A DNA stretch of 64,000 nt from Lachnospiraceae oral taxon 107 str. F0167 (GTDB taxonomy: Bacteria; Bacillota; Clostridia; Lachnospirales; Lachnospiraceae), in NCBI GenBank assembly GCA_000209465.1, contig GL890584.1, positions 186,001 to 250,000 on the forward strand, read 5' to 3'. Positions 13,019 to 52,424 of the stretch are shown piece after piece. The notes below the pieces were generated by a model. That model saw only the letters and a program-made list of their open reading frames with translations. It was not told where the DNA came from and did no database searches. The position numbers were made by a program, and so were the translations under genes. The first letter of the stretch is position 1; every line of letters begins with the position of its first letter.

Positions 13019-13353
13019 GGGGATGTACCGGTTTCGACAGGGAACATGCAGCTGGTGAAGCTATTCGTATGCAATGCGTTAAATGGCAAAATTAAATATA
13101 AACGCTGAAGATAATTTAGCATACGCTGCCTAAGGCAGTTGCAGACCTGTAAGCACTCACACTTACAGAATCTGTATCGACTTATGTGAGAAACCTTATA
13201 TACAAAGCTTTGAGTATATAGATGTATTATGAAGCTACTCTTTTCTGCAGTTTGTTGTTTGACTGTTTTAAAGGGGAATTTTAACAAGCAACTATAATAG
13301 TAGAAGAACAGGGAATTGTTTTTTGGACACGGGTTCAACTCCCGTCATCTCCA
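13019..13353 (+). ncRNA. ssrA: tmRNA (ssrA), tag AKLNINAEDNLAYAA
   Basis: tmRNA rescues stalled ribosomes by acting as tRNA-Ala and as a short message. The 5' end GGGGATG pairs with CATCTCC at the 3' end, with one G-U pair; GGTTTCGACAGG and the T arm GGGTTCAACTCCC complete the tRNA-like part. The reading frame starts at GCA (13086) and ends at TAA (13131-13133), giving a 15-residue degradation tag ending in the hydrophobic run LAYAA. The CCA end is not encoded. A promoter lies upstream and a terminator hairpin follows at 13361. Confidence 0.97.
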
Positions 13354-13360
13354 CTTTTAA

Positions 13361-17498: not shown

Positions 17499-18962
17499 CT
17501 ATAACTCCTGATAATTATACTTTTGTAATAGCTCATATCTCATATCCCATAATTTCTGTGAAAGGTCCACATAGGTCTCATGAGGATATGCAAGTCTCTT
17601 TGACTCATCCCAAAGGGTGTCAAGCTCTTTTTTACAAAACTCTCTTATCTCCATAACAGATGGAGACTTGTATACACATTCTCCATTTTTAAATATAGGC
17701 ACCAACAGCTCCTTTGTTTCAAATGAGCCGGCGCTTAACTTTGTTCTTTTCCATGTTTCCACAGGATCAAAAAGCATCAGTGATTCTTCTGTGGACAGAT
17801 TCTCCTCTTCCAAGCATATATAATCAGCTATTATCTTTCCTGTTTTCTTATTATAGATCCTGTATATTTTTTTATTTCCCGGATTTGTAATCTTTTCCGC
17901 ATTCTCAGACAGCTTTATCTTAGGTATAAACTCACCTGTATCTTCATTCATAACCGCAGCCAATTTATATACACCTCCAAATGCAGGGCAATCCTTTGAT
18001 GTAATAAGATTAGTTCCAACACCCCATTTATTGATGGTTGCACCCTGTAATTTTAAAGAAGAGATGATATTTTCATCCAGATCATTTGAGGCTGAAATAA
18101 TAGCATCATTAAATCCGGCTTCATCAAGCATCTCCTTGGCTCTCTTTGAAAGGTATGCAAGATCTCCGCTGTCAAGTCTTATACCGTAATTTTTAAGCGG
18201 TATTCCGGCTTCTCTCATTTCTTTAAATACTGTAATAGCATTCGGTACGCCCGATTTTAATGTATCATAAGTATCCACAAGAAGTGTACATGCTGTAGGG
18301 AAGGTCTTTGCATAGGTTCTGAATGCGGACAATTCATCCGGAAAGCTCATTATCCAGCTATGTGCATGTGTTCCAAGTATGGGAACATCAAACATTCTTC
18401 CGCAAAGAACATTGCTGGTACCTACACAACCTCCTATAACAGCGGCTCTTGCACCATAAACACCTGCATCAGGTCCCTGTGCTCTTCTAAGTCCGAACTC
18501 CATTACACCGTCGCCATCCGCCGCCAAAACCACTCTCGCCGCTTTTGTAGCAATAAGTGATTGATGATTTATAATATTTAACAATGCTGTTTCTATAAGC
18601 TGTGCCTGCATTATCGGAGCAATCACCTTTACAAGCGGCTCTCTCGGGAATATTACACTTCCCTCAGGTATAGCATAGATATCACCTGTAAACTTAAAAT
18701 CTCTCAAATAATCCAAAAAATCTTCTCTAAATAATTTTACTTTTCTCAGGTACTCTATATCCTCATCATCAAAATGCAGATTTTTAATATAATCTATTAC
18801 CTGATCAAGTCCGGCACAGATTGCATATCCGTTTTTATTCGGATTTGATCTGTAAAACATATCAAAGATCACTGTTTCATTTGCATTGTTCTCCAAATGA
18901 TAACCCTGCATCATTGTAAGTTCATATAAGTCAGTCAATAATGTCAAATTTCTTTTATCCAT
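17499..18962 (-). CDS. pncB: Nicotinate phosphoribosyltransferase
   Basis: PncB joins nicotinate to PRPP to give nicotinate mononucleotide in NAD salvage. The 487-residue length fits the long Gram-positive form. Visible: LLTDLYELTMMQGY at the start, FDMFYRSNPNKNGYAICAGL, FGLRRAQGPDAG, the phosphohistidine region GTHAHSWIMSF and VDTYDTL, RLDSGDLAYLS and the phosphate-binding WGVGTNLITS. It has its own promoter and is followed by nudC. nadE at 54540 would finish NAD synthesis. Confidence 0.96.
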   Translation of the reverse strand: MDKRNLTLLTDLYELTMMQGYHLENNANETVIFDMFYRSNPNKNGYAICAGLDQVIDYIKNLHFDDEDIEYLRKVKLFREDFLDYLRDFKFTGDIYAIPEGSVIFPREPLVKVIAPIMQAQLIETALLNIINHQSLIATKAARVVLAADGDGVMEFGLRRAQGPDAGVYGARAAVIGGCVGTSNVLCGRMFDVPILGTHAHSWIMSFPDELSAFRTYAKTFPTACTLLVDTYDTLKSGVPNAITVFKEMREAGIPLKNYGIRLDSGDLAYLSKRAKEMLDEAGFNDAIISASNDLDENIISSLKLQGATINKWGVGTNLITSKDCPAFGGVYKLAAVMNEDTGEFIPKIKLSENAEKITNPGNKKIYRIYNKKTGKIIADYICLEEENLSTEESLMLFDPVETWKRTKLSAGSFETKELLVPIFKNGECVYKSPSVMEIREFCKKELDTLWDESKRLAYPHETYVDLSQKLWDMRYELLQKYNYQEL

Positions 18963-19006
18963 TTTTTCCCATCCTTTTTAAAGTAACTACTTAAGCTTTG
19001 TATACC

Positions 19007-19035
19007 AATCTATGCCTTATTTATGATATTGTCAA
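19007..19035 (-). promoter_or_regulatory. Promoter of pncB-nudC
   Basis: Minus-strand TTGACA (19030-19035) and TAGATT (19007-19012) are spaced by 17 bases. Confidence 0.65.
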
Positions 19036-19081
19036 GTGAATTAAGCTTAAAATAATATAAATCATTTATAATCATTGTTAT

Positions 19082-19308
19082 AGTTCAGGTGCCATATGTT
19101 TTGAGGCTTTTAATTTTACAATCCTTGTAGCGTTTAACTCTTTCGCAAAACAAGGCAGGATTAAGCTGTCGAGGACTTGTTTGAGTGTAGTTCGCTGCTC
19201 CCCAAGCGAACAAACGAGTTCCGCAGACTGCGTAAAATCCTGCGAAGTTTTAAGAAAGAGTTGCGATTAGGATTGTAAAACAAAAGCTCTAAAGGGTATA
19301 CCTGAACT
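19082..19308. repeat. Dispersed structured repeat, full copy with long inverted ends
   Basis: This element fills most of the 350-base gap between the pncB promoter and the peptidase gene. It begins AGTTCAGGT and ends ACCTGAACT; the two outer arms, about 75 bases each, are imperfect inverted repeats (ATTTTACAATCCT...CTCTTT against AAAGAG...AGGATTGTAAAA). The roughly 80-base centre has its own hairpin: ACTTGTTTG (19175-19183) with CAAACGAGT (19211-19219) around GTTCGCT/AGCGAAC (19190-19211), then CGCAGACTGCG. A second, truncated copy lies at 52250-52424 with the same orientation. No protein is encoded. A MITE-like mobile repeat, a terminator or a structured RNA are all possible. Confidence 0.85.
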
Positions 19309-19312
19309 GTAA

Positions 19313-19912
19313 CTAATCATTAAACAATATCAGTCCACCTTTTCTTTTATGCCCGGTATTCCACAACTCTCTAAAATCAAACCATCTATAGCTGCCATAG
19401 CTTACCACTTTTACCATAAATTTTTCATTGTTTTCTTCATATCCCGTAAGCAAAAACCAATGCCATACAAAATCTTTGAATTTAGGATTTTTATGCATCA
19501 ACACAAGCATCGGTACAGGCATCTTTTTATCTATTTGATATTTTACCACATTTATGGCATCTTCTATATCATTATCTCCCGAGTATTCTTCCAAATTTAT
19601 GCCATATTCTCCGATATCTTTTAAAAAGTCGCTTATACCGTCCACATATATCTCCAACCTGTCTATGCCTGTCCATCTCGGTCTGAGATAAGGTTTTACA
19701 TTATTTGAAAAATCCACATAATCAAGTGCATTTAAGTTTTCTTTATCGTATGGATATAGATTATCTTTTCCAAGATATTTACTCATATATACAAAGCTGT
19801 CACAAGCTGTTACACAGGCACAACCGCCTTTATTCATCCAGAGATTTTTAAAATCCTCTTGATTCCAGCCATATTTTCCGTCAATTAAAAAATAATTCAA
19901 TTCTTTTTTCAT
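19313..19912 (-). CDS. C39-like (papain-fold) cysteine peptidase, cytoplasmic form
   Basis: The 199-residue protein looks like a peptidase C39-type papain fold: a cysteine-rich helix start NKGGCACVTACDSFVYMS (Cys31, Cys33, Cys37 in this numbering), and VWHWFLLTGYEE with the candidate catalytic His151, followed by KFMVKVVSYGSYRWFDFRELW, where conserved Asp/Tyr residues fit the third catalytic position. No signal peptide or transporter domain is seen, unlike bacteriocin-processing C39 exporters, and no bacteriocin is nearby. ATG at 19912 (site AGAGAG) is preferred over TTG at 19936, which sits inside a terminator-like hairpin. Only four bases separate its stop from the repeat element. Substrate unknown. 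Confidence 0.65.
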   Translation of the reverse strand: MKKELNYFLIDGKYGWNQEDFKNLWMNKGGCACVTACDSFVYMSKYLGKDNLYPYDKENLNALDYVDFSNNVKPYLRPRWTGIDRLEIYVDGISDFLKDIGEYGINLEEYSGDNDIEDAINVVKYQIDKKMPVPMLVLMHKNPKFKDFVWHWFLLTGYEENNEKFMVKVVSYGSYRWFDFRELWNTGHKRKGGLILFND

Positions 19913-19927
19913 ATTCTCTCTAAAATT

Positions 19928-19967
19928 TTGGAGCAATATAATACTTTAAAGTACCACATTGCTCCAA
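19928..19967 (-). terminator. Hairpin after the DUF1292 gene
   Basis: TTGGAGCAAT (19928-19937) pairs perfectly with ATTGCTCCAA (19958-19967) around a 20-base loop. It lies just after the DUF1292 stop and would end the long translation operon; the U tract is weak, so some read-through into the peptidase gene is possible. Confidence 0.5.
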
Positions 19968-52205: not shown

Positions 52206-52249
52206 GATTTTATATTCTTAAGATTAAAAAACACTTGAAAATAAAATTA

Positions 52250-52424
52250 CAGTTCAGGTACTATATATTTTGAGACTTTTAATTTTACAATCCTTGTAGC
52301 GTTTAACTCTTTCGTAAAAACGAGACAGGATTAAGCAGTCGAGTACTTGTTTGAGTGCAGTTCGCTGCTCCCCAAGCGAACAAACGAGTTACGCAGACTG
52401 CGTAAAATCCTGCGAAGTTTTAAT
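52250..52424. repeat. Dispersed structured repeat, truncated second copy
   Basis: From ACAGTTCAGGT to CGAAGTTTTAA this is highly similar to the copy at 19082-19308, including a 38-base identical run in the left arm (52276-52313) and the central hairpin with GTTCGCTGCTCCCCAAGCGAAC spelled out in two parts. The outer part of the right arm is missing, so it cannot fold end to end. As with the first copy, it lies a few bases beyond the stop of a minus-strand gene (52432) and in the same orientation. Confidence 0.85.

Follow-up and report, generated by a model that had tools for sequence, protein, structure and literature searches.

The YPAL/RU-2 repeat of Yersinia, of about 168 bp, inserts in or next to sequences of dyad symmetry and has empty sites in a sister species, and it carries internal inverted repeats and makes duplications of 3-26 bp, according to the extracts of its description (PMC2229807). 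In Streptococcus pneumoniae, the RUP and BOX repeats combine terminal inverted repeats with duplications, BOX is modular and the elements nest, with 125 BOX and 110 RUP copies given in the extracts of PMC3049150. The ERIC/IRU/RU-1 element is a small structured repeat located in operons and able to make upstream transcripts more or less stable (extracts of PMC2229807 and PMC3049150), and the Correia/NEMIS element is a MITE with terminal repeats for which evidence of RNase III cutting once transcribed is mentioned (PMC3049150, in extract).

Against this background, we describe an element found in a window of 64,000 nucleotides, the whole stretch of DNA that was analysed, whose behaviour appears most like that of YPAL/RU-2, RUP and ERIC. 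With YPAL/RU-2, as described in the extracts, it shares a small, intergenic and structured nature; two of its five sites with an empty allele are loops of host hairpins, which recalls the dyad targets of YPAL but is no rule here; it differs in having terminal repeats and 8-bp duplications. As a Firmicute repeat with terminal inverted repeats and duplications, it is comparable to RUP and BOX, whereas their copies are far more numerous and their ends are described as 5'TA (PMC2229807, in extract). By the same extracts, it can be likened, as a small structured repeat, to ERIC/IRU/RU-1, which in contrast has 127 bp and TA ends and belongs to enterobacteria, and, as a MITE with terminal repeats, to Correia/NEMIS of Neisseria, which unlike it has TA ends and 24-bp terminal repeats and can supply promoters. 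The ends of the present element start with GTTAC or GTTAT, and the TA-dinucleotide ends of RUP, ERIC and Correia are absent. The family is undescribed, among the matches listed, in the literature searched on bacterial MITEs, on Lachnospiraceae and Lachnoanaerobaculum and on YPAL, and the extracts of PMC10969869, PMC3049150, PMC2267715 and PMC2229807 hold no description of this hairpin element family. It is ordinary in kind; what is unusual is that the two modules can be observed separately, and that the core occurs in reversed orientation at shared sites without losing its pairing.

The initial annotation had placed a repeat of 227 bases at 19082-19308. The repeat is real, with its hairpin fold, inverted ends and 8-bp duplications all confirmed, but its true ends lie 5 bases further out per side, at 19077 and 19313. 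The resulting 237-bp element has inverted ends GTTATAGTTCAGG/CCTGAACTGTAAC and stands between perfect direct repeats TAATCATT at 19069-19076 and 19314-19321 (8/8 identical), the target-site duplication that had been worth looking for. Its left terminal inverted repeat (GTTATAGTTCAGGTG, 19077-19091, plus strand) has 2 mismatches to the consensus GTTACAGTTCAGGTA, its right one (TACCTGAACTGTAAC, 19299-19313, minus strand) none. A left outer arm leads from the terminal repeat to the core (19092-19106, plus strand) and lies outside the part shared with sisters, whose matches start at query position 28-36, and a right outer arm, delimited from the sequence, follows at 19288-19298 (plus strand). The hairpin core common to sister species occupies 19107-19287 (plus strand), with a covariance-model match of 195.5 bits at 19114-19279. 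On both strands, positions 19060-19330 form one long hairpin with bulges (-104.5 kcal/mol, z -10.5, and -91 kcal/mol, z -8.8), and none of 200 shuffles is equally stable; one long bulged stem fits better than the internal double hairpin first proposed.

The longest ORF within the 237 bp encodes 42 aa, and so short an element has no transposase gene of its own. No Rfam family was found at the element by gathering score, and a Tetrahymena snoRNA model returned at a loose E-value, with 17.3 bits against a cut-off of 80, was taken as chance. Elsewhere in the window, Rfam models revealed a tmRNA gene (13019-13356, 142 bits) and a tRNA gene (2010-2098).

The site at 19077 is empty in all five sister genomes, where the two flank matches meet end to end or overlap, to within roughly a dozen bases, and because of this the element can be said to have transposed as a non-autonomous, MITE-like unit. 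A MITE-like character, one of the first suggestions, is borne out by this empty site together with the inverted ends, the 8-bp target duplication and the 19 places occupied in the genome. The insertion replaced the last codons of a minus-strand host gene without Pfam match (19313-19936), whose 207-aa product now terminates in ..LILFND, two residues shorter than in the five sisters (..LILFNENN in two, LILFNENK, LILFSKNT and LILFNKNA). A minus-strand stop codon had correctly been noted within ten bases of the repeat; the stop, at 19313-19315, even uses the last base of the element. On its other side, the element landed just upstream of a promoter-like TTGACA-17-TAGATT (19035-19007, minus strand) that precedes the nicotinate phosphoribosyltransferase gene (17499-18962, minus strand) and whose TTGACA is kept, by eye, in 5/5 sisters. 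A promoter scan detected 7 sites where 2.3 were expected; one is the likely promoter of this gene, and none of the seven was shown to belong to the element.

The second copy in the window, previously given as a truncated one with a near-identical core at 52250-52424, is indeed truncated, with corrected bounds of 52246 and 52423 (plus strand). It comprises the left end and the core up to query position 175, with 93% identity over query 1-175 of 235, the right arm being deleted. This copy sits in the loop of a host hairpin, the left half of which is left over beside it at 52222-52245 (plus strand) and which sisters keep whole; the other half of the hairpin was lost, together with the element's right arm and its right-hand duplication. 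The place is empty in 5/5 sisters and forms a strong hairpin in the three that were folded, G002, G003 and G004 (z -3.8 to -10.4, 200 mononucleotide shuffles). Its neighbours are an ORF with a weak DUF6637 match, below the family cut-off, and the MraW (rsmH) methylase gene. At the same site, sister G001 has a 2-kb insertion (L212:277-2284) that encodes a 591-aa DDE_Tnp_1 protein and is bordered on both sides by directly repeated host DNA of about 300 bp. IS1634-type elements make duplications of such length. This insertion was considered as a partner transposon and rejected, its ends TTTGACAGCTAA/TTAGCTGTCAAA differing by eye from those of the element.

A search of the own genome returned 24 matches, corresponding by our count to 19 places with full or partial copies after three palindromes re-read backwards were dropped and two split pairs merged, in agreement with the early expectation of many copies in the genome. 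Two of these places are old sites shared with other species (L005 at prmA, L016 at trp). When ends were sought in 15 of the 19 (L005, L010, L016 and L017 being left out), all 15 had at least one within 4 mismatches; L018 and L021 were at that limit, and L018 is doubtful as a copy. Both ends and an almost full core are found in just three copies (L001, L004 and L008), and in L014 an internal deletion has left 101 bp. According to a crude ORF call, all 19 places and the three end-only elements examined fall outside ORFs.

Relative to the facing gene 3' end, we read 6 of the 19 places as sense, 8 as antisense and 5 as unclassifiable, which rules out a consistent orientation: the copies at 19082 and 52250 do point the same way, as initially observed, but this does not hold as a rule. 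Mixed orientation also bears on the suggestion of a terminator that spreads. An intrinsic terminator of this sort (SPRITE-like) would account for the 10 of 19 places that lie, by our count, within 50 bases of a gene 3' end facing them, and for the two host hairpins at insertion sites; yet a simple scan of 18900-19500 for a stem followed by a T-run found no terminator-like site, and 237 bp with bulges is not the expected build. We consider this explanation extremely improbable.

The ends themselves argue for transposition. Among eight end-pairs, flank identity averages 0.70 at 8 bp against 0.33-0.52 at 4-7, 9 and 10 bp, and mismatched flank pairings, used as a control, gave a mean of 3.0/8 and a maximum of 6/8. 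The 8-bp duplication is perfect at two end-pairs, L001 and L036, and imperfect at the other six (6, 7, 4, 3, 5 and 4 of 8 matching); the pair of L018 has 4 mismatches in each end. The enzyme acting on these ends is probably of the DDE type. No autonomous partner with matching ends (at most 1 mismatch) at IS distance was detected in the five sisters or in the own assembly, whose 70 contigs leave gaps.

The distribution of the core is narrow. Its covariance model recognised 3 of 397 family genomes, all from one genus out of 334, in a scan whose stricter filters miss some weak matches, and 5 of the 6 genomes of that genus, the own one included. By DNA search, the core was present in 2 of 299 genomes, and the exact core pattern occurred in 9 stretches of named contigs in a collection of 84,980 species genomes, 9/9 of them Lachnoanaerobaculum. 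Phage and plasmid records yielded no blastn match to the element, and viral contigs no match to the exact core pattern. Relatives were thereby found in one genus only, which is probably Lachnoanaerobaculum and to which the window would also belong, and the element is a genuine, genus-limited and probably composite MITE.

Judging from the sequences compared, the element looks like a composite of two older parts, which sister species carry separately. The first part is the pair of ends. L036 is an end-only element of 44 bp with a perfect 8-bp duplication, CATCAAAG; L038 (44 bp) and L051 (48 bp) are more diverged at their ends, and their flanks match at only 5/8 and 4/8 positions. Sisters G003 and G004 share what seems to be a single place occupied by an end-only element (L064, L066) of about 70 bp whose interior is different; the right flank is the same in both, and the right end of L066 is degenerate. 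End-only elements thus measure 44-70 bp and are present in the own genome and two sisters, although those of 44 bp could also be deletion products or remnants of the composite. The second part is the core of about 180 bp, which 4 of 5 sisters carry in 1-3 copies each without those ends, at three shared sites: trpG-trpD, acpP-rnc and the region upstream of prmA (the gene families are those of Pfam, with acpP and the precise trp assignments read off sequence and order). G003 has no core by DNA or covariance searches. The core of the window element is closest to the acpP-rnc type (91-92%; the other types reach 84-87%), and we infer that a core entered an end-only element. Five sites have a recognised empty allele. 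Two of them, copy 2 and acpP-rnc, are loops of host hairpins (acpP-rnc by folds of the own genome and of G002); the prmA site is next to a host hairpin, and 19077 and trp show none.

By eye, no target duplication was recognised at the core-only copies. This point, the hairpin anatomy and a near-pure Watson-Crick pairing that suits a DNA hairpin would all fit a REP/REPIN-like element whose hairpin DNA is the substrate of a Y1 (HUH) transposase. The composite nevertheless has inverted ends and 8-bp duplications, which Y1 transposition is not known to make, and this leaves such an origin very unlikely.

At the shared sites, the core is found in both orientations. Between acpP and rnc, the G005 insert fits those of G001 and G004 when reversed (206/223 for both) and not as is (166/198 and 164/196). 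Upstream of prmA, the G002 and G005 inserts are reversed with respect to those of G001, G004 and the own genome (201-211 of 229-239 identical when reversed, 163-168 of 199-212 otherwise). At trp, the remnant in the own genome fits rather better reversed (120/143, score 113.5, against 123/152, score 88), a weak signal. The prmA inserts of G002 and G005 (L028, L034) are identical at 250 of 253 positions, which suggests exchange or recombination between these species, and the reversal at prmA may consequently be one event. Separate insertions are a possible source of the opposite orientations. Near the prmA site, a 2-kb insertion in G005 (C1, about 1548321-1550390) breaks the shared region, with about 25 bp repeated at its edges.

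Such persistence at three intergenic sites could indicate that the core is a structured RNA or hairpin with a host function at operon junctions (transcript processing, an RNase III site or an attenuator), captured later by the MITE. The covarying stem described below and the position of one site beside rnc, the RNase III gene, agree with this, as does the trpG-trpD core, with 0/167 differences in each of three species pairs while four-fold sites differ at 0.18-0.25. At prmA, the core shows 3, 10 and 11 of 167 differences (four-fold sites 0.15-0.37), and at acpP 2/167 against 0.13 in the one pair compared, the reversed G002 and G005 copies being left out. However, at all three sites, the intergenic DNA around the core is conserved to about the same degree (0-1/64 differences at trp, 6-29/385 at prmA and 8/371 at acpP), and core conservation was rejected as proof of host function, which weighs a little against this explanation and against the further reading given last. 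Moreover, 2 of 5 sisters lack the trp copy and one lacks any core, the orientation is not kept, and the less preserved copies lose their pairs to G-U and C-A in equal measure with no strand favoured. A host function of this kind is therefore judged unlikely.

The stem was analysed in an alignment of 16 nearly complete copies, 12 of which were counted after leaving out window copy 2, which misses an arm, and three near-duplicates. Fifteen of the 54 stem pairs changed on both sides and still pair (37 cells), against 6.9 and 12.1 in shuffles, and 0/500 shuffles reach either value; these shuffles ignore relatedness, and the tested structure was derived from the same sequences. Sliding the partner by 1-3 columns leaves just 1-5 pairs with two-sided change. 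The number of further pair types, 26 where shuffles give 27.5, is no point in favour of the structure, and the covariation term of RNAalifold is small (-1.82 of -49.69 kcal/mol). A conserved structure with covarying pairs, for which a check had been proposed at the outset, is supported by the two-sided changes. Copies in excess of two, covariation and the lack of an Rfam family are all contrary to the observations that had been named in advance as refuting the first interpretation.

The copies fall into two groups, which we set after seeing the data. In the eight better-preserved copies, 415 of 432 cells are Watson-Crick, 12 are G-U, 2 C-A and 3 other, and in the four decayed ones 169 are Watson-Crick, 16 G-U, 13 C-A and 15 other, with 3 gaps. 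Without one pair that is U-G in 10/12 copies, the counts become 14 G-U and 13 C-A in the decayed copies and 4 and 2 in the better ones. Since a G-U on either strand reads as C-A on its complement, their equal numbers in decayed copies imply that the RNA of neither strand is protected there. Among the 16 variable pairs of the better copies, 11 vary solely from Watson-Crick to Watson-Crick by two-sided changes; the other five show, among other things, single-sided changes and, in three prmA copies, a G-U at 27-147. We read this stem pattern as selection on the hairpin, perhaps that of DNA.

The same doubles may have another source, the copying of one arm onto the other by template switching in a near-palindrome, which would require no structural selection and is compatible with a MITE. 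The better copies differ mostly by Watson-Crick doubles with few wobble intermediates; the window and trp copies are separated by 9 double stem changes and no single one, and the 11 pairs just mentioned point in this direction too. Arm copying should nonetheless erase loops and bulges, yet 40 of the 59 unpaired columns are invariant among the eight better copies. We hold this origin of the paired changes to be possible but on balance doubtful.

Taken together, the element is likely a non-autonomous, transposase-dependent MITE of two modules, made as a composite in this species and then spread. The first module is the pair of inverted ends of about 15 bp, which a transposase would recognise, making the 8-bp duplications, and the second is the older, bulged hairpin core, observed without those ends at three intergenic sites of sister species. 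To come between the ends, the core would have been inserted into an end-only element or else captured. The composite then spread to the approximately 17 places where it is now observed, most copies being truncated or internally deleted. In the better copies, by our own grouping, core pairing persists through two-sided stem changes, while other copies decay symmetrically, and the reversals observed at shared sites could most simply result from recombination or cruciform resolution between the arms. If transcribed into mRNA, the element is predicted to form a very stable intergenic hairpin that may affect how stable the transcript is or how it is processed. Transposase ends and structured cargo, the two halves of a MITE, are seen apart in sisters and joined in one species, which makes the origin of the element traceable, and the shared sites allow the flipping, deletion and compensation of a long palindrome to be measured in nature.

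A further reading, rather unlikely in our opinion, gives the core a life of its own before this union. It would be selected for its form as a DNA hairpin or cruciform, with almost pure Watson-Crick pairing kept up by paired changes. Functional whichever way it lies, it would flip in place between species and insert into host hairpins; certain copies would have acquired a host function, and it would have been captured by transposon ends in one species and spread from there. One candidate for such a function is the acpP-rnc copy, as a long double-stranded leader that RNase III may cut to control its own gene. RNase III, the product of rnc, is an enzyme that cuts long hairpins, and this copy offers a direct test case for a hairpin insert turned into a control site for that enzyme. 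The core lies there, in three sisters, within an intergenic hairpin just before rnc (L136:2971-3203), and the own genome has the bare hairpin only. In G003, the loop of the host hairpin (L141) contains a short stretch that, by eye, looks like one of the outer arms of the insert found in other sisters and is perhaps the remnant of an excised copy.
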